From: a virus | Direction: 5' to 3' (one strand) | DNA length: 39,040 nucleotides | IMG/VR virus record: IMGVR_UViG_3300036791_000910 | Coordinates: 1-39,040 of that record | Shown here: positions 3,840-38,869 of the stretch, piece after piece | How positions within the stretch are numbered: the stretch's first letter is position 1 | Layout of the letters: every line of letters starts with the position of its first letter | Notes under the pieces: model-generated | Seen by the model: the letters and a program-made list of their open reading frames with translations, nothing else | Databases searched by the model: none | What the model was told of the DNA's origin: nothing | Program-made: the position numbers and the translations under genes

Positions 3840-4158
3840 CACGATACGTCTGACGTTGCTGACGCTTGATCCGGCGGCGCTCCCTTTCGCTGCACCCGCC
3901 CCAGACGCCCCACTTCTCCCCGTTCTCTAGGGCGTAGTCGAGGCATTGCTGAAGGACCGGACACTGACCGGGATGCTCCGGGTGGGTCCCCAGGCAGACG
4001 CTCTTGGCCTCTTGCACCTGCCCGTTGTGCTGATGATCCGCGAAGAACAGATTCGTTGACCCAGTGGCGCACAGGCTGTGGCATTTTGCGTGGTCGATCC
4101 AGGCGGGCCTGGCTCGCTCGTAGATCGCCGTCAGGGCCAGGCTCGCGTCGACGCTCAA
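3658..4158 (-). CDS. WhiB-like Fe-S transcriptional regulator
   Basis: This frame encodes a clear WhiB-like domain: AWIDHAKC near the start, a TNLFFADHQ segment, the cluster cysteines SVC...GQCPVLQQC, then GVWGGCSERERRRIKR, the G[VI]WGG turn and basic DNA-contact region. WhiB proteins bind a 4Fe-4S cluster and act with the primary sigma factor in Actinobacteria; phage versions can alter host transcription. The usual CX2C is replaced by CX10C (Cys55-Cys66), followed by the normal CX5C. No ATG is available upstream of the domain; TTG 4158 is the best in-frame start, with no good ribosome site. The frame overlaps both the preceding gene (320 bp) and the Cas4-like gene (182 bp), so the exact ends are uncertain although the domain is not. 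Confidence 0.75.
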   Translation of the reverse strand: MSVDASLALTAIYERARPAWIDHAKCHSLCATGSTNLFFADHQHNGQVQEAKSVCLGTHPEHPGQCPVLQQCLDYALENGEKWGVWGGCSERERRRIKRQQRQTYRDAALEAGQIISIEAAPSDRSEPAGATGHQQATDPTPWRRTKVLIAAWRQRRMAERCAASF

Positions 4159-16821: not shown

Positions 16822-17403
16822 TCAGTCGCCGTTACCGAAGTACTTGTGGCCTTCGATCTCGCGACGCTGCGTCTGATCGATCTGCTCCAGTTCGGGACCG
16901 GCGCTGGGGTCGATCTTCAGGGCACGCTTGTTCACCAACTCCCTGCGGCGACCCAGTCGATCAAAGACCTTGACTGCCGTGACACTGTCCTTGAGGGACT
17001 CCCCAGTCTTGTAGGCCACGGACAAGGCACGCCGGTCACCTCGAACGATGGTGGTCCCATCCGTGTCGATGATGCACACCTGGCCGTTCGGGCGGCTCTT
17101 GTTCCAAGGGGACCATGGAACAAAGTGATTCTGCATCCGCTTGACGACACTCTCGTCCGAATACCCGTAGGTGCCTAGAACGGCCCCCTCCAGGGTGACG
17201 TGACCGGTGCGGAAGTCTGGGTCCGCAAAGTCATCCACGTAGCCATCGAGCAACTCGCCCTCGACGGCTCCCTTGAAGTCCCAGTGGACCTCCTCCACCC
17301 CCGGCTCCGACTCGATGGTGGTCTTGTAGATCAACCGGGGGTGCTTCTCTCGGAGCCGAGTCCTCACCCCCTCGTCCTCCAGGTACTTGTTGGCAGGAGC
17401 CAC
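16822..17403 (-). CDS. Promoter-proximal protein of unknown function
   Basis: 193 residues from GTG 17403, chosen because AGAGGAGG lies 5 nt upstream; the frame is open to 17466 but those starts (TTG 17466, ATG 17424) have no site and TTG 17466 sits in a leader hairpin loop. The protein starts VAPANKYLEDEGVRTRLREK, has an ordered middle (VEEVHWDFKGAVEGELLDGY, MQNHFVPWSPWNKSR, VCIIDTDGTTIVRGDRRALS) and a basic C-terminus. No family recognised. It is driven by the best sigma-70-type promoter in the window. Confidence 0.7.
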   Translation of the reverse strand: MAPANKYLEDEGVRTRLREKHPRLIYKTTIESEPGVEEVHWDFKGAVEGELLDGYVDDFADPDFRTGHVTLEGAVLGTYGYSDESVVKRMQNHFVPWSPWNKSRPNGQVCIIDTDGTTIVRGDRRALSVAYKTGESLKDSVTAVKVFDRLGRRRELVNKRALKIDPSAGPELEQIDQTQRREIEGHKYFGNGD

Positions 17404-17453
17404 AACTACCTCCTCTCTGCCCATCCAGTTGGTGGGCCTCAGGTTTTCAGCTT

Positions 17454-17474
17454 GTGCTCCGAGCAACGGAGCAC
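17454..17474 (-). promoter_or_regulatory. Inverted repeat at the transcript 5' end (operator or leader hairpin)
   Basis: Perfect 8-bp arms (GTGCTCCG / CGGAGCAC) with a 5-nt loop, starting right at the predicted transcription start (about 17475). As DNA it is placed like an operator; as RNA it would be a 5'-terminal stem-loop stabilising the message. Confidence 0.6.
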
Positions 17475-17510: not shown

Positions 17511-17530
17511 GCAGTGGCTATCAGGGACAA

Positions 17531-20202: not shown

Positions 20203-20811
20203 CTAGTTGCCCTCCACGCACCTGTAGTCTTCGCCCTCTACCAGGATGATGCGGGTGGCTCCGTGCAGGAGGCTGGTGAAGCCCTCGCTGTAGCGGCTCT
20301 TGAGCTCCGGCATGGACTTGTTGGTGGTGAAGATGGTGGGCTTGCCCCGGTTGAACCGGTACCGGAAGATGTCGAACAACTGCTCGTTCGACCAGCCAGA
20401 TCCTGACTCATGCTCACGTCCGATGTCATCGAAGAGGACGAAGTCAATCCTGTTATGCATGCGCCGCACCTGTACGTCGATGCCATGGAAGTCCTCTACG
20501 GCGTCGCTATAGCCAGCCCTGACCTGGCTGTCGTACCTGAACATCCGGTGGTGCATATTCACGTACGTGGCGAACTCCATAGCCTCGATGCTGAAGCCCT
20601 CCGCCTGGGCGCACTTCAGCACCATGCTGGCCAGGAAGGTCTTGCCCACGCCGGACGGCCCCGTGAGGAACAGCCCGTAGGCGTGCTTGCGGTGATCCTT
20701 GATGGCCTCCATGTACTTCTTGACGGCCTCCACGGCCTGGCTGTGGGACGGGTCACGGATCTCGAAGTCACCGATAGTCTTATTCCGATACTCCACGAAG
20801 ATGTCGTTCAC
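20203..20811 (-). CDS. dnaC: DnaC-like AAA+ helicase loader
   Basis: 202 residues from GTG 20811, whose AGGAGGCACT site and 4-bp GTGA overlap with the previous stop fix the start. YGLFLTGPSGVGKT (Walker A, 51-58), FVLFDDIG (Walker B, about 124-130), PTIFTTNKSMPELKSRYSEG (sensor 1 and the arginine-finger region SRY) and RIILVEGEDYR at the end are the DnaC/IstB pattern. It loads the DnaB-like helicase encoded two genes downstream onto melted origin DNA. Length is typical of phage loaders. Confidence 0.92.
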   Translation of the reverse strand: MNDIFVEYRNKTIGDFEIRDPSHSQAVEAVKKYMEAIKDHRKHAYGLFLTGPSGVGKTFLASMVLKCAQAEGFSIEAMEFATYVNMHHRMFRYDSQVRAGYSDAVEDFHGIDVQVRRMHNRIDFVLFDDIGREHESGSGWSNEQLFDIFRYRFNRGKPTIFTTNKSMPELKSRYSEGFTSLLHGATRIILVEGEDYRCVEGN

Positions 20812-21323
20812 AGTGCCTCCTGGTAGAACGAGAACCGGCAGTTGTTGCACCGGTACCGCTGCTTGCTCTTGTCGGGAGTCCTGCCGTTGCGGTGGACCCG
20901 GGGCGACCGACAATAGGGGCAGGGCGGGAGCTCGGCGTCCTTCCTGGTTCTCTTCCCCAACTTGGTCTTGAGCGCCTTCCGGGCACGCTTGGCCAGGTGG
21001 TACCGCTTGTGCCACTCCCGGCGCCAGTCGTAGTACTCCACTGCCCCCATCCATATTTTTTCACGCACGCTGGCGGTCATCCCGGCGTAGATGAAGAACG
21101 GCTGACGCTCATAGTTCTCCAGGGTCCAGCGGGTGCAATCTTGAAACAACGAGCAGCGCACGCACAGGGACTGGCAGACCTCTAGAGCCTCGACGCTCTC
21201 ATCGAAGTACTCCTGGCGCCCGATGCACCGGCAGCGGGGGTCAGCCTTGAAGTCGTCGTTGATGGGGCGGCGCCCCCCCTCCAGCCATTGGGGGGGCTGC
21301 CGCTCCGTATTGGTACCCGTCAC
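20808..21323 (-). CDS. WhiB-like protein fused to an InsA-type zinc ribbon
   Basis: 171 residues from GTG 21323 (GTGA overlap with the upstream stop). Residues 24-90 form a WhiB-like domain: ADPRCRC, then EVCQSLCVRCSLFQDC with the CX2CX5C cluster motif (Cys54, 57, 63; the first ligand is Cys31 or Cys33), then FFIYAGMTASVREK matching the G[IV][WY]xG-SxRE turn. A basic helical linker (HLAKRARKALKTKLGKRTRK) leads to a C-terminal zinc ribbon: CPYC (135, 138), NGRTPDKSKQRYRC, CNNC (159, 162), the ribbon found at the N-terminus of IS1-type transposases (InsA). The fusion should bind DNA through the ribbon and sense or recruit through the Fe-S domain (inference). It lies between initiator and loader genes. 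Confidence 0.8.
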   Translation of the reverse strand: MTGTNTERQPPQWLEGGRRPINDDFKADPRCRCIGRQEYFDESVEALEVCQSLCVRCSLFQDCTRWTLENYERQPFFIYAGMTASVREKIWMGAVEYYDWRREWHKRYHLAKRARKALKTKLGKRTRKDAELPPCPYCRSPRVHRNGRTPDKSKQRYRCNNCRFSFYQEAL

Positions 21324-22129
21324 GATGGTGAGTATGACGGGGGGGTGTGACGGCCAAGCCAGTCCTTGTGCCGGGTGGGCGAGGGATCGTTCCTGAGCCA
21401 GTCCTTGTTCCGGGTGGGGCGCCTGGTCACGATGCCGAACAGATCGCGGCGTCGGGACACGAAGACCAGCCAGGCTGATCGCTTCGAGCGCCGTACCCAC
21501 TCGGGGTGCTGGACGAACTCGGTGATCATCTCCCGCACCGTGTCGACTGTGACCCCATCCTCCAGCCAGAACTTGAGGTTCTGACCCAGGCCAGTCCGGT
21601 CGATCTCAAACCGGTGCATCAGTCCGTGCTCAACAGCGGTGTTAAAAAAATCCGAGACTAGCCCCGGGACAGGCGAACGTACGTTCGAGCGACGCATTAG
21701 CCAATTCGAATTCGAACTAGCTAAGGCTTCTATACCTATGGAAGCCCTTCTGTCCTCCCTGCGGTCGGACAAAGAGGAAGCTCCGTACAGGCGCTGCGCG
21801 CCATAGTACTGGGCGCCGGAGGCGCCCGAAGAAGTTTGGGGATCTTCCCCAACTTTCTTTTCTGGGGGACTGTGGCTCTCCTCGAAGCAGGGCCGCAGCA
21901 CCTCGAAGCCCTCTCCGTCCACCTTGCGGACGTAGCCGCCGTCCTCCAGGTGCGTCAGCACGGCGCCCGCATCGGATAGCCAGGTCGGTGACCCGCTCAG
22001 GCGCTGTACCAGGGTGTCCCGGTCTAGGGGAACGGTCCCCCTCCGGCCCGTCTTCCTGCTCATGTAGCGCAGAGCGGCGTGCTCGGCGCGTCCCAGTTCC
22101 AGGCATGGCGGCACCAAGCCCTCGTCCAT
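21320..22129 (-). CDS. Winged-helix replication initiator-like protein
   Basis: 269 residues from the second of two adjacent ATGs (22129; site GGGAGG with better spacing than ATG 22132). Residues 10-80 look like a winged helix (EHAALRYMSRKTG, AVLTHLEDGGYVRKVDG). A polar linker (about 85-150) leads to a helical C-terminal domain DFFNTAVEHGLMHRFEIDRT, WLEDGVTVDTVREMITEFVQ, RSAWLVFVSRRRDLFG, a DnaD/phage replisome-organiser-like layout. As the first gene of the replication operon, followed by loader, helicase and primase, it is the likely origin-binding protein. The linker DNA carries two palindromes, as in lambda O-type initiators whose origin is inside the gene. Confidence 0.7.
   Translation of the reverse strand: MDEGLVPPCLELGRAEHAALRYMSRKTGRRGTVPLDRDTLVQRLSGSPTWLSDAGAVLTHLEDGGYVRKVDGEGFEVLRPCFEESHSPPEKKVGEDPQTSSGASGAQYYGAQRLYGASSLSDRREDRRASIGIEALASSNSNWLMRRSNVRSPVPGLVSDFFNTAVEHGLMHRFEIDRTGLGQNLKFWLEDGVTVDTVREMITEFVQHPEWVRRSKRSAWLVFVSRRRDLFGIVTRRPTRNKDWLRNDPSPTRHKDWLGRHTPPSYSPS
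21674..21716. repeat. Two perfect palindromes in the initiator linker (possible internal origin)
   Basis: CGAACGTACGTTCG (21674-21687) and TTCGAATTCGAA (21705-21716) are perfect palindromes 17 bp apart, sharing TTCG/CGAA half-sites, next to an A7 tract at 21644-21650. The segment encodes the flexible linker of the initiator-like protein and is visibly AT-richer than its surroundings. Confidence 0.5.
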
Positions 22130-22194
22130 CATCGCCTCCCTTAGATTGCTCCAGCCGTTCGGTCCCTTCCGCAGGGGCCGGTCGGTAGCAACTC

Positions 22195-22223
22195 AGACTG
22201 CCCCTACCCGGGGTGGCTGTCAA
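22195..22223 (-). promoter_or_regulatory. Candidate promoter of the replication operon (TTGACA-N17-CAGTCT)
   Basis: Minus-strand perfect -35 TTGACA (22223-22218), 17-bp spacer, weak -10 CAGTCT (22200-22195; A2 and T6 kept). The spacer holds a CCCC/GGGG inverted repeat. It lies 66 bp upstream of the initiator-like gene, the first gene of the leftward operon. Confidence 0.55.
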
Positions 22224-22242: not shown

Positions 22243-22368
22243 TTATGCACAGGCAGCTTGTGGATAACCGGTTGACTATCCATGACGATATAGGGCAATC
22301 ACGGGCTGTCTAGAAGGCTCATTTAGCGGTGGTAAGCCCACAGGGTTGTCCACAGGTACTGTGGATAA
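22243..22368. other. Cluster of four DnaA boxes, candidate replication origin
   Basis: Four 9-mers fit TTATNCACA/TTGTCCACA: TTATGCACA (+, 22243-22251), TTATCCACA (-, 22259-22267), TTGTCCACA (+, 22346-22354), TTATCCACA (-, 22360-22368). The boxes form two inverted pairs 78 bp apart. TTGTCCACA is the preferred actinobacterial DnaA box. The cluster lies in the sole divergent intergenic region, between the replication operon and the terminase. The last box touches the terminase GTG. Host DnaA could act as initiator or as a transcriptional regulator here. Confidence 0.65.
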
Positions 22369-33511: not shown

Positions 33512-35374
33512 ATGTCTCGGCCCTATCCGCTTAACTACTCTCGGATCTACTATCAGACGGTCACGGGCGCCTCTGGGCTCAACGCGAACGGCAGCCTTGC
33601 GGTCGCCTCGGTAGTACAGATAGCGGGTGGGTCGGTAGCGGAGGCAGCCACTGCCAGCCTGACGTCGGCTGGTCGCCCACAGCAGGTCGCCAGCGTAAAT
33701 GCCGTGGGCAACGCCTCCATGATCATGGCGGCGTCCGTCAATCAGCTAGCCGGGGTGACCCTGGCGGGTGGCACCACCCTCAATGTGGCGGCGGCTCTGA
33801 CCCGTCTGGGCGTGGCTTCATTGTCGGCCACGGCCAACCTCACTCCGGCGGGTCGGGTGCAGGAGTTCGCTGCTGCTGCCCTCTCGGGTAGCACCAGCCT
33901 GACAGTGGCGGCGGCGGGCGCCACCAATGCGCCTGTGGCCCTGGTGGGCAGCACGTCGCTGGTGATGGCGTCCCAGGTCCAGCAGGTAGCCAGCGTGGCC
34001 CTGGCGGCGAGTGCCGCCCTCACCAATCAGCCCAGCATCATCCGGGTGGCCAACGTGGCCTATGCGGCCACGGCGCAACTCACCGTGGCTGCCGCTCAGC
34101 TTGGTGCGGCGGCTCTGTCGGCCACGGCCAGCCTGAGCCCGGGTGGCTTGGCAGTGGCAGTGGCATCCGTGTCTATGGCGTCAACTGCTGGGTGGGTGGT
34201 CACCGGCACGGCCACGCCGGTCGGTGTGCTGTCCCTGTTGGCACAGAGCGACATGCTGGTCACTACCTCACCGCTGTCCATGGCTGCCACCGCGATGTCG
34301 GCCTCCACCACCATGGTGACGCAGGCATCAGTGATCCCACTGGCCGGGGTCTACATGCAGGTTGGCACCACCCTGACCCTCTCTGTCTCTGCGGTGGGCA
34401 AGGGCGGCGTACTGCTTCAGGGCGGAGCCTCATTGACCTCTGATGTCACAGTCACTCAGGTGGCCTCCCTGATCCTCAGGGCAATCAGCGGTCTGACTCC
34501 AACAGCCTCTCCGGTGTTGATCAGGGCTGGGGTCGGATTCGTCGTCAACTCCTCTCTGGTGACGACGTCCGGCGCCTTCCAGCACGCCAATGTGGCCCTG
34601 AGGGCAACGGCGAGGCTGACGATGGTGGGCTGGACGGTCACTCACTTGGCCTCTGTTGGCCTCCATGGCGCCAGCAACTTGATCGTGGCTGCCCATGTCC
34701 AACAGTTCTCCGCTGTCGCCTTGCATGGGGTGTCCGGCCTCACGGTCCAGGGTGTCCGTGTCATAGGCGTGGGCATGCCCATGTCTGCGACGGCGCACAT
34801 GACGGTGGCGTCCACGACGCGCACCACCTCCCAGGTGGCCATGCATGTCAGCGCCTCCATGGTGGTGGCTGCCACCAGGATTCGCCTGGCCAGCATGCGA
34901 ATGGCTGCCGCCGCCAGCGCCCAGATCGTGGGAACGGTGATCAGACCGGCGCTGGTGAGCATGGCGGCGCACGCCTCCATGACCGTGTCGGCCTCCCCGG
35001 TCCAGGTCTACGCCCAGGTGACGATGTCGGCCACGACATCAATCAACATCGTCGGCAACGTCGTCGTCGTCTTCTTGCACGGCCACAGCACCATGGTGTT
35101 GTCGGCCACGGTGCAGAACGTTGCCACCATAACGCTGGTTGGCGACGCCGAGCTCAACATCATCTCGGAGTTGTCCACCAAGGCGGCGGTCGCCCTGGTG
35201 GGGGACACCGACATGCTCATCGACGCCCGGTCGCACGGCAACAACCCCCTCTTCGATTGGCCCAAGCTGGCCGATCTGATTGGCGCCTCGGCTCAGTTGG
35301 ATCCGTTGATGGCGGGCGCCACTGGCTACATTGATGACGTCTTCCCGGCGCGGCTGTTGGGCGACAGCACTTAG
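33512..35374 (+). CDS. Repetitive beta-rich tail fibre protein
   Basis: 620 residues from ATG 33512. After [19 protein letters not shown] almost the whole protein is a degenerate tandem repeat of 17-23 residues, about 28 copies, with consensus near VASVALxAxAxLTVAAxxVQ. Each unit should give two short strands, as in a beta-solenoid or fibrous shaft. Mycobacteriophage minor tail proteins with VAASLSGTGTLSATA-type repeats are the closest known parallel. The end ([20 protein letters not shown] then a short tail) is non-repetitive and could be the tip or attachment. The stop overlaps the converging collagen-like gene's stop. Confidence 0.75.
33600..35220 (+). repeat. Degenerate 51-69 bp tandem repeat tract
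   Basis: About 28 protein-level repeats in the fibre gene; at DNA level the copies are diverged but keep blocks such as GTGGCCCTG and CAGGTAGCCAGCGT. Divergence suggests selection on repeat shape instead of recent expansion. Confidence 0.7.
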
Positions 35375-36000
35375 TGTTGGCAGGCCAGGAAGTTGAGAAC
35401 CTGGCTCTTCTCCTTGACGGAGATGGGACGGAGGGTGTACCCACTGGGGCAGGTTGCACCTTGCGGTCCTTGCGGCCCTGTCAATCCTCTAGCCCCGGTA
35501 GCTCCTGTGGCCCCCTGTGATCCGGTCGCACCGGCCTTCCCCGTAGCTCCGGTCGCTCCGGCGGGACCGGGAGGCCCAGCAGGGCCAATAGATCCGGTGT
35601 TGCCAGCCGTGCCAGTTGCACCCTGTTGACCCTGCGCTCCGGTTGCACCTATTGCTCCAGTGCTTCCACTAGCTCCAGTAGTTCCTGCTTGACCTGTAGA
35701 ACCTGCTGTTCCAGTTGCTCCAATCTGTCCACTAGCTCCTGTGCCCGTCGTACCGCTTGCTGTAGTTCCATTGGTCCCGTTCCTCCCGGCTGGCCCCTGC
35801 GGCCCTGTCTTGCCTGGTGGCCCCACTGGACCTGTTGGTCCCGCTGGCCCTGGCCCGCCTCCTGGTCCTACGACCACAGCAGGCTCAGGCTGAGGCGGGG
35901 AAGATCCAGAGATCAGGGCCGCAGCACAGACGACGAACAACACCCCGGCGATGAGGAGCAACGCTGCACCGCTACTAAAGACCCTTCGGATCCATCCCAT
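35371..36000 (-). CDS. Membrane-anchored collagen-like protein
   Basis: 209 residues from ATG 36000 (ACAGGACAACA). A single hydrophobic segment (about residues 10-31, [20 protein letters not shown]) after a positively charged start (MGWIRR) predicts a type II anchor. Residues ~50-185 are G-X-Y collagen triplets with one interruption ([14 protein letters not shown]). A small C-terminal piece has two cysteines (CPSGYTL, FLACQH). Located last in the lysis cassette, it would be cell-envelope-anchored with an external triple helix (inference). It could also be virion-bound, but a membrane anchor is unusual for a fibre. The ATG lies inside the preceding gene by 26 bp. Confidence 0.7.
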
Positions 36001-36247
36001 TGTTGTCCTGTCTCGGAGGCTTGATGCCATGCTCCGCTAACAGGAGCGCAAGGTCATAGTTGTGTCGTTCCGCCTCGATGCGTAGCCGACGCTCGTCAGA
36101 CAGCATCTGGCTGATGTTGTCGAACTCCTCCTTGGCTGCCTTGCGCTCCTTGTTGCGGACTGACTTGATCGCTAGCAGGACGCCTCCTATGGCCGTGATG
36201 ATCCCGGCTATGCCAGTGAGGAGAGCGATGAGATCGGTGACGTTCAT
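35975..36247 (-). CDS. Holin candidate (single membrane segment)
   Basis: 90 residues. One N-terminal membrane segment ([20 protein letters not shown], about residues 6-28) followed by a basic then acidic, helical coiled-coil tail ([20 protein letters not shown] onward). Position two genes after the endolysin, size and layout suit a holin or antiholin that permeabilises the inner membrane and times lysis. No family confirmed; a spanin-like or superinfection protein cannot be excluded. The ATG directly follows the preceding TGA. Confidence 0.6.
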
Positions 36248-37621: not shown

Positions 37622-38422
37622 TTATGAGTTAGGGGGGATGATCCAGCTAATGTTGTCAAGGAAGAGTTGCCCGGTGGTGTTCAGGGCGGGGTACCGCAGG
37701 TAGATTCTGCCATCCGTGCGTATGTCCACTCGATACATCCGCGCTGGCTCGCAGTCCTCCACTGCTACCTGCGTGTAGTCCTGCGTCGGGGTCGTCCCGA
37801 GTGGGCACATCATTATGGGCGTGGCGTCAGGGGGATCGGTGTTCGGGTAGTAGACCTCGCCGTGTAGCTGGCAGCGACCCCAGGCGTCGATCAAGTAGGT
37901 GGTGCTGGACCCGGGCACGTTCCTCCAGGGCGCCAGTAGCAGGGAGCCTCCGTCCTGCCATACCGGAGGAACCAGTTGATCCATCCCCCCGTTCTCTCCC
38001 GGGGCGCCGACTGGCCCCTGCGGTCCGGCTGGTCCGGTTGCCCCTTGCACGCCCTGGGGGCCAGTCGCTCCTATGTCTCCCGGTGGTCCTTGCGGGCCGG
38101 AGGCGATGGGCAGCGTCTGCCATCCAGCGGTTGGGTCGTAGTAATAGACGTCGGGGTTGGTGGTGCCCACCAACCAGACCATGCCTGCCTGGCTGGCATC
38201 TGGCACTGCCGGGAGGTAGCTGGTGTCCTTGACCACACCGGCAATGGTGAATCCACCCGGGGGTCCTACTGGACCGGCTGGCCCAGCGGGTCCCGCTCCG
38301 CCAGCCGGACCCTGCACGCCGCCTGGACCCTGAGGCCCAGGAGGGCCACCCGGTCCCGGCAGCCCCGGAGTGAGGATCTCTATGACCTCGGGGGCGGGGT
38401 TGGTGATGACGACGTTGCTCAT
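37622..38422 (-). CDS. Collagen-like tail fibre protein
   Basis: 266 residues from ATG 38422, which overlaps the preceding gene's TGA as ATGA. EVIEILTPGLPGPGGPPGPQ begins a G-X-Y collagen tract; a beta domain follows (FTIAGVVKDTSYLPAVPDAS, VWLVGTTNPDVYYYDPTAGW), then a second collagen tract (SGPQGPPGDIGATGPQG onward) and a C-terminal beta domain (WGRCQLHGEVYYPNTDPPDA, YRVDIRTDGRIYLRYPALNT). Alternating collagen and beta modules are typical of trimeric phage fibres. Its reading frame is the same as the first part of the upstream gene, so a 415-codon open frame exists, but the ATGA coupling and domain content argue for a separate start here. Confidence 0.8.
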   Translation of the reverse strand: MSNVVITNPAPEVIEILTPGLPGPGGPPGPQGPGGVQGPAGGAGPAGPAGPVGPPGGFTIAGVVKDTSYLPAVPDASQAGMVWLVGTTNPDVYYYDPTAGWQTLPIASGPQGPPGDIGATGPQGVQGATGPAGPQGPVGAPGENGGMDQLVPPVWQDGGSLLLAPWRNVPGSSTTYLIDAWGRCQLHGEVYYPNTDPPDATPIMMCPLGTTPTQDYTQVAVEDCEPARMYRVDIRTDGRIYLRYPALNTTGQLFLDNISWIIPPNS

Positions 38423-38869
38423 CCGTAGCTCCCTCGCTGTCCGATAGTGAGCGCCAGGTTGGTGTTGGGATCGATGGGTTGGGTGATGTTGGGGTCGACG
38501 TAGAAGAAGCCCCGCATGATGCGGTCCTGCACGCCCGTGGCGTAGAGGACGAACAGGTCGTAGACGTAGGCCCGCCCGATGCCCCAGATGCCCACAGCCT
38601 GCACGGCGCCCGGGGTAGTTTCCACTACGGAGGTAGGCGTAGCTGTCCTCGGGAGGGATGTGCAACTGGATGGAGGCGCCGTCGCCCAGGATCACGCACC
38701 GACCACTGTCACTGTCCAGCCGCAGGGCCAGGACGTAGTTCTGATTGCGGATCTCCATGACGGCGCCCTGCAAGCCGATGAGCGCCCCGCTGCCGCTGTC
38801 CCGTAGCCGGATCACCTTCTGCCAGTCGGCAGCGACGTCGAGGTGGAAGTCAAACTGGGCTATGGGCAT
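38419..38869 (-). pseudogene. Tail-fibre base protein interrupted by an apparent +1 frameshift
   Basis: From ATG 38869 a conserved-looking beta protein begins (FDFHLDVAADWQKVIRLRDS, MEIRNQNYVLALRLD, SIQLHIPPEDSYAYL). Its continuation (YVYDLFVLYATGVQDRIMRG, FFYVDPNITQPIDPN) lies in the +1 frame up to the TGA at 38419, which overlaps the next ATG by 4 bp. Together they match the common phage beta-protein layout D..I.L..YDL.L...G...R...G...V.P.IT. The switch must occur around 38606-38625, possibly at CCC GGG (skip one G). It could be a programmed +1 shift, a mutation, or an assembly error. Product would be 149 residues. Confidence 0.65.

Follow-up and report, generated by a model that had tools for sequence, protein, structure and literature searches.

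Among Wbl proteins, only WhiB7 carries a recognised DNA-binding motif (PMC6282962): its core holds region 4 of sigma-A and its C-terminal element reads the DNA beside the −35 element (PMC6282962, PMC10245118). WhiB1 and WhiB3 require F17/F18 and W60 of the turn (WhiB1 numbering) to bind region 4 of sigma-A, and the corresponding alanine mutants of WhiB3, that of the turn tryptophan included, abolish sigma-A4 binding (PMC10245118). WblP of the Streptomyces plasmid SCP1 is a fusion of a Wbl domain with an ECF sigma factor (PMC6282962), and mycobacteriophage TM4 and other actinophages encode WhiB proteins of their own. We analysed a 39,040-base IMG/VR virus record (the window), which is presumably a fragment of a larger genome, given related contigs of up to 114 kb, and in which a gene of the replication operon encodes a WhiB domain followed by a basic helix and a zinc ribbon. 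The arrangement resembles that of WhiB7/WblC from Mycobacterium and Streptomyces in that a WhiB core precedes a C-terminal element, here predicted to bind DNA; however, WhiB7 has an AT-hook in place of the basic helix and ribbon, keeps the tryptophan of the turn, and serves as an antibiotic-response regulator of the host. With WblP it has in common that a mobile element encodes a WhiB domain fused to another DNA-related domain, although the partner there is a sigma factor rather than a zinc ribbon. The sequence-only reading of this DNA took WhiB proteins to be normally single-domain, which is broadly right, with WblP and the AT-hook of WhiB7 as exceptions.

The gene lies at 20808-21323 of the window, as first proposed, and reads on the minus strand, encoding 171 residues from a GTG start at 21323 to a TGA stop at 20810-20808. 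Its start overlaps the stop of the preceding gene as GTGA, and its own stop overlaps, again as GTGA, the GTG of a DnaC-like helicase loader (20203-20811, minus strand; phrog_50, E 2.7e-30); these overlapping codons at both ends indicate that it is translationally coupled on both sides, in agreement with its earlier description as a coupled gene. A longer reading frame of 230 residues from a GTG at 21500 was rejected: it would run out of frame into the upstream gene, and several homologues have an in-frame ORF that opens only a short way before the ATG. The upstream gene (21320-22132, minus strand) is the first of the operon and encodes 270 residues. It had been called the initiator, which suits its position, but no Pfam or PHROG profile names the protein of the window, and the C-terminal half is homologous to a Borockvirus gene that lies at the loader or immediately before it (hhalign probability 92, E 6e-7); we treat it as a putative initiator on the grounds of position.

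Residues 28-89 (21057-21242, minus strand) match the Pfam profile PF02467 (WhiB) with an E-value of 2.7e-5 and 25.0 bits against a gathering cut-off of 23.6; the lineage records scanned with this profile likewise all score above the cut-off, and it is found in all 27 homologues collected here (E ≤ 0.01). Compared with the PDB, the family profile recovers WhiB, WhiB4, WhiB1, WhiB3 and WhiB7 at E-values from 5e-8 to 2e-3. The four cluster cysteines C33, C54, C57 and C63 (C-xn-C-x2-C-x5-C) are invariant in the alignment of 27 sequences, so that both the WhiB similarity and the cysteine conservation on which the sequence-only reading depended are present. The individual motifs that it named, C54-x2-C57-x5-C63, I78-Y79-A80-G81, SVRE, C135-x2-C138 and RYRC-NNC, can all be located in the translation. 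The aromatic pair after the first cysteine, which corresponds to F17/F18 of WhiB1, is kept across the family as YF, FF or FY, with Y39-F40 aligning to the FF pair of WhiB in the profile comparison. The canonical turn, defined as G[I/V]W[G/A]G (PMC10245118), is absent: the 27 homologues mostly read [G/F/Y][I/T/V][F/Y/V/A]AG, only A80-G81 being invariant, and the tryptophan is found in none of them, its place being taken by F or Y in most and by V or A in one clade. With this residue replaced, the canonical sigma-A contact is not assured, and docking on sigma is a plausible candidate interaction only. The protein is a divergent WhiB-domain protein, not a canonical Wbl.

The WhiB domain is followed by a DWR motif, of which D99 and W100 are invariant in the aligned family, and by a basic helix (residues 100-131; 20931-21026, minus strand), identified from composition and the structure model, that contains 14 K/R and 3 D/E in 32 residues. 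Residues 135-167 (20823-20921, minus strand), including C135, C138, C159 and C162, match the NCBIfam zinc-ribbon profile NF050000 (IS1_IS1595_Zn) with an E-value of 3.8e-8 and 33.8 bits (cut-off 28), and also NF048018 (IS256_N_4Cys) at 32.2 (cut-off 27), while the transpos_IS1 profile stays below threshold (22.7 against a cut-off of 100). Both domains therefore exceed their profile cut-offs, which upholds the reading as a WhiB domain plus a zinc ribbon. NF050000 matches 23 of the 27 homologues (E ≤ 0.01), and all four ribbon cysteines are kept in each of the 24 that bear a ribbon. In the InsA-type transposases of IS1/IS1595 such a ribbon is N-terminal; here it is C-terminal, after WhiB, and the protein stops at the ribbon, with neither a helix-turn-helix nor a DDE catalytic part behind it. 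The earlier label "transposase-type" is accordingly apt for the ribbon alone, and a transposase fragment was excluded, the catalytic part being absent.

The structure was modelled with AlphaFold2 on the family alignment, using no templates, and the model reached a pLDDT of 84 and a pTM of 0.62 with 27 sequences, compared with a pLDDT of 68 from an 18-sequence alignment. In a Foldseek search of the PDB, WhiB structures were the top matches, the first ten including WhiB1:sigma-4 (6ono; probability 0.99, target TM 0.70, E 0.06), WhiB3:sigma-4:DNA (8cyf; probability 0.99), a Streptomyces WhiB (8dy9) and WhiB7 (7kim), with probabilities of 0.87-0.99 and target TM scores up to 0.70 among the WhiB matches. 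The E-values of single Foldseek matches are weak (at least 0.06) despite the high probabilities; the sequence profile reaches the PDB WhiB independently at E 5e-8. The core of the ribbon is modelled as three strands with a pLDDT of 86-91, and the C-terminus matches a DNA-bound Dof domain and NrdR ribbons with probabilities of 0.95-1.0.

The 27 distinct usable homologues were obtained from scans of viral contigs, all from uncultured viruses that make up a family of soil phages, and are 28-54% identical. Pairwise dN/dS values of 0.09-0.38, similar in the two domains, show that the gene is under purifying selection across both; the homologues, this selection and the structure model together rule out a chance motif or artefact. 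Three homologues (L063, L071 and L074) lack the ribbon and retain the WhiB domain and basic tail. Their loader starts directly after the coding sequence for WhiB and the basic helix, which leaves no DNA for a ribbon and excludes frameshift artefacts, and the L074 protein still ends in EEL, as do most relatives that bear a ribbon, which would fit an in-frame deletion of the ribbon. In a tree built from the WhiB part only, well-supported branches force three separate ribbon changes, which are read as losses, given that the ribbons can be aligned and are shared throughout the tree; by this reading of the sequences the ribbon has been lost at least three times. Since WhiB and the basic tail stayed while the ribbon was repeatedly lost, WhiB is the indispensable core and the ribbon a module.

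A match covering both domains was found in none of 50,697 phage records and none of 72,556 plasmid records, the matches in both sets being those of the WhiB part to annotated WhiB genes, and exact peptide patterns, which may miss distant copies, found no cellular copy in about 85,000 bacterial and archaeal genomes. The phage-encoded WhiB proteins of TM4 and other actinophages hence resemble this family in the WhiB part only; the tblastn similarity of one family member, L019, to mycobacteriophage WhiBs has an E-value of 5e-4. Longer WhiB-containing families exist in PHROGs, but their extra parts have no match to this ribbon, and the order of WhiB and zinc ribbon was not found described in the open-access literature searched. 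In the cultured phages, plasmids and genomes that were searched, a WhiB domain joined to a separate zinc ribbon therefore has no counterpart.

Downstream of a divergent TerL, the slot flanked by the upstream gene and the loader holds the gene in every member of the lineage that covers it, the lineage being defined by DnaB at least 54% identical, so that the position in the replication operon on which the sequence-only reading remarked is conserved across these phages. In outgroup contigs with DnaB 35-40% identical the gene was not found. By TerL (48-50% identity), the nearest cultured phages are the Streptomyces phages BRock, Alone3, LuckySocke, pSt2308 and GiJojo; in the three inspected, BRock, Alone3 and pSt2308, no such gene lies by the loader, and searches of the whole records found one canonical WhiB each, located elsewhere, and no ribbon. 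Phages whose DnaB, loader or TerL is related lack the gene, which indicates that it is not a core part of replication. The WhiB domain, the Streptomyces-phage relatives and a G+C content of 62% point to an actinobacterial host.

The larger lineage records carry a canonical WhiB together with the WhiB-ribbon protein. In the window this second WhiB (3871-4101, minus strand) also has a WhiB domain with four cysteines, but it keeps GVWGG, lacks a ribbon, is shared by Borockvirus-type phages too and is located near RecA rather than next to the helicase loader; here, as in L033-L035, L036-L039, L041 and Borockvirus-type phages, it has an unusually long C-x8-10-C spacing instead of C-x2-C. Several further features of these records were observed. 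The TerL gene at L064:2089-4466 (minus strand) is interrupted by some 250 inserted residues, in frame and ending in ...YASKN/C, and an SNF2-type helicase gene at L029:3561-6060 has an in-frame insertion that starts with C-VLEGSLVDTPQGPRRIESLGVGD and ends in ...GLLVHN/C; both look like inteins. The N-terminal part of the portal gene occurs twice in L023:1-1879 (residues 1-33 at 1043-1141 and residues 1-29 at 1793-1879), and the structural-gene half of the window encodes two collagen-like Gly-X-Y repeat proteins (35371-36030 and 37622-38869, minus strand).

Before the operon lies a promoter-like element, TTGACA-17-CAGTCT-6-CTACC (22184-22223, minus strand), whose pattern is conserved in the lineage. 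The composite form (TTGACA, 17 bases, CANNNT, 4-7 bases, YTACC) occurs exactly once per record in 11 of 14 lineage records, and was found neither with a reversed-pattern control nor in three cultured Borockvirus-type relatives; being present once per record, it reveals no phage-wide regulon. The ribbon was considered as a reader of the GTTACC motif, which is unsupported: the motif is intact in L063, so that the ribbon is not its necessary reader. In the clade of L069, L071, L072, L073 and L074, WhiB is far more diverged than TerL or DnaB, and most members have V or A in the turn and an altered operon promoter. Co-change of WhiB type and promoter type is no more than suggested by this and was rejected as evidence of a link: it is confounded by descent, as the trees of DnaB, TerL and the loader each show the clade as one branch. 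Three exact DnaA boxes (TTRTCCACA) are positioned at 22259-22267 (minus), 22346-22354 (plus) and 22360-22368 (minus), and are the only ones in the window, where 0.34 would be expected; the 236-base region between TerL and the operon that contains them is a candidate origin. Elsewhere in the window, a promoter-like CTTGACA-17-TATTCT at 17511 (minus strand) lies just upstream of the gene at 16822-17466.

We think it probable, by a reasonable rather than a wide margin of confidence, that the protein is a phage-borne, lineage-specific Wbl-type transcription regulator that acts on early phage genes and has gained a zinc ribbon as a DNA-binding module. Being translationally coupled to its neighbours in the replication operon, it would be an early product. 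An Fe-S cluster bound by the four cysteines is predicted to fold the WhiB core, which would dock on the transcription apparatus of the host, presumably an actinobacterium; known Wbls dock at the −35 element on region 4 of the primary sigma factor. Neighbouring DNA would then be held by the basic helix together with the ribbon, and the polymerase may be biased toward or away from particular promoters, which could be early phage promoters (possibly that of its own operon), host promoters or both. Supporting this model are the PF02467 matches throughout the family, the profile and Foldseek matches to WhiB:sigma-4 complexes with the aromatic pair kept, the location of the basic helix and ribbon where Wbls carry a DNA-contacting tail, and the likeness of the ribbon to those of IS1/IS1595, NrdR and Dof. 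The restriction of the gene to one lineage among phages with related replication genes and the retention of WhiB plus basic tail in the ribbon-less homologues also argue for it, as does the action of published phage WhiBs on transcription (TM4, PMC8612146). The missing turn tryptophan and the promoter motif surviving in L063 cut against simple versions of the proposed function: docking may differ or be lost, and no DNA target is identified. A more specific form, which we regard as unlikely, is a redox-responsive Wbl with a zinc-ribbon DNA-reading arm and tryptophan-independent polymerase docking that controls a single dedicated promoter/origin region of the replication operon.

The perfect synteny with the loader would also fit a role in replication. 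As an accessory primosome or origin factor, the protein would use WhiB as a structural Fe-S fold and its ribbon to bind origin DNA or ssDNA, helping the upstream protein and the loader to deliver DnaB. Zinc ribbons occur in replication proteins, the gene always lies directly between these two partners, with overlapping start and stop codons in the window, and the candidate origin there is 0.9 kb upstream. We nevertheless consider this role doubtful, as Borockvirus-type phages and the DnaB outgroup lack the gene in the sequence examined, the ribbon is dispensable, the known biochemistry of the WhiB fold is transcriptional, and exact DnaA boxes occur in just 4 of the 23 intergenic regions compared (the window, L009, L063 and L066).

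The gene also changes far more rapidly than TerL, which is common among proteins that face the host: identity to the window is about 41-56% for the WhiB-ribbon protein and 81-90% for TerL. A host-takeover or superinfection factor could account for this: as a dominant-negative Wbl, the protein would shut down WhiB-dependent genes of the host for cell division in the manner of TM4 WhiB, which blocks secondary infection and acts as a repressor of host whiB2 (PMC8612146); over-expressed phage WhiBs are mildly toxic (PMC11797047). The loader and the upstream gene evolve equally fast, however, TM4 WhiB is single-domain, and the second, canonical WhiB of these phages is the likelier TM4-like agent, which makes such a function quite improbable for the WhiB-ribbon protein. 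Loss of the Fe-S function, with the WhiB fold binding zinc or nothing in what would be solely a two-zinc DNA-binding protein, is very improbable: the turn motif is degenerate and four cysteines can bind zinc, but the cysteines that are invariant in 27 of 27 homologues are precisely the four of the Fe-S site, and the neighbouring C31 and C50 are not invariant.

How Wbl proteins find specific promoters is a long-standing problem, and the present family offers a WhiB domain whose DNA-binding-type module is clear and can be separated from it. In the same operon slot, natural homologues that bear the ribbon and others that lack it provide a ready comparison for what a DNA-binding arm adds, and could also be used to ask whether WhiB docks on polymerase without the turn tryptophan. 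With this family, what is probably an Fe-S regulator is located within the replication operon of a phage; if it proves to be the redox-responsive Wbl outlined above, phage replication would be switched by an Fe-S regulator that the phage itself encodes.
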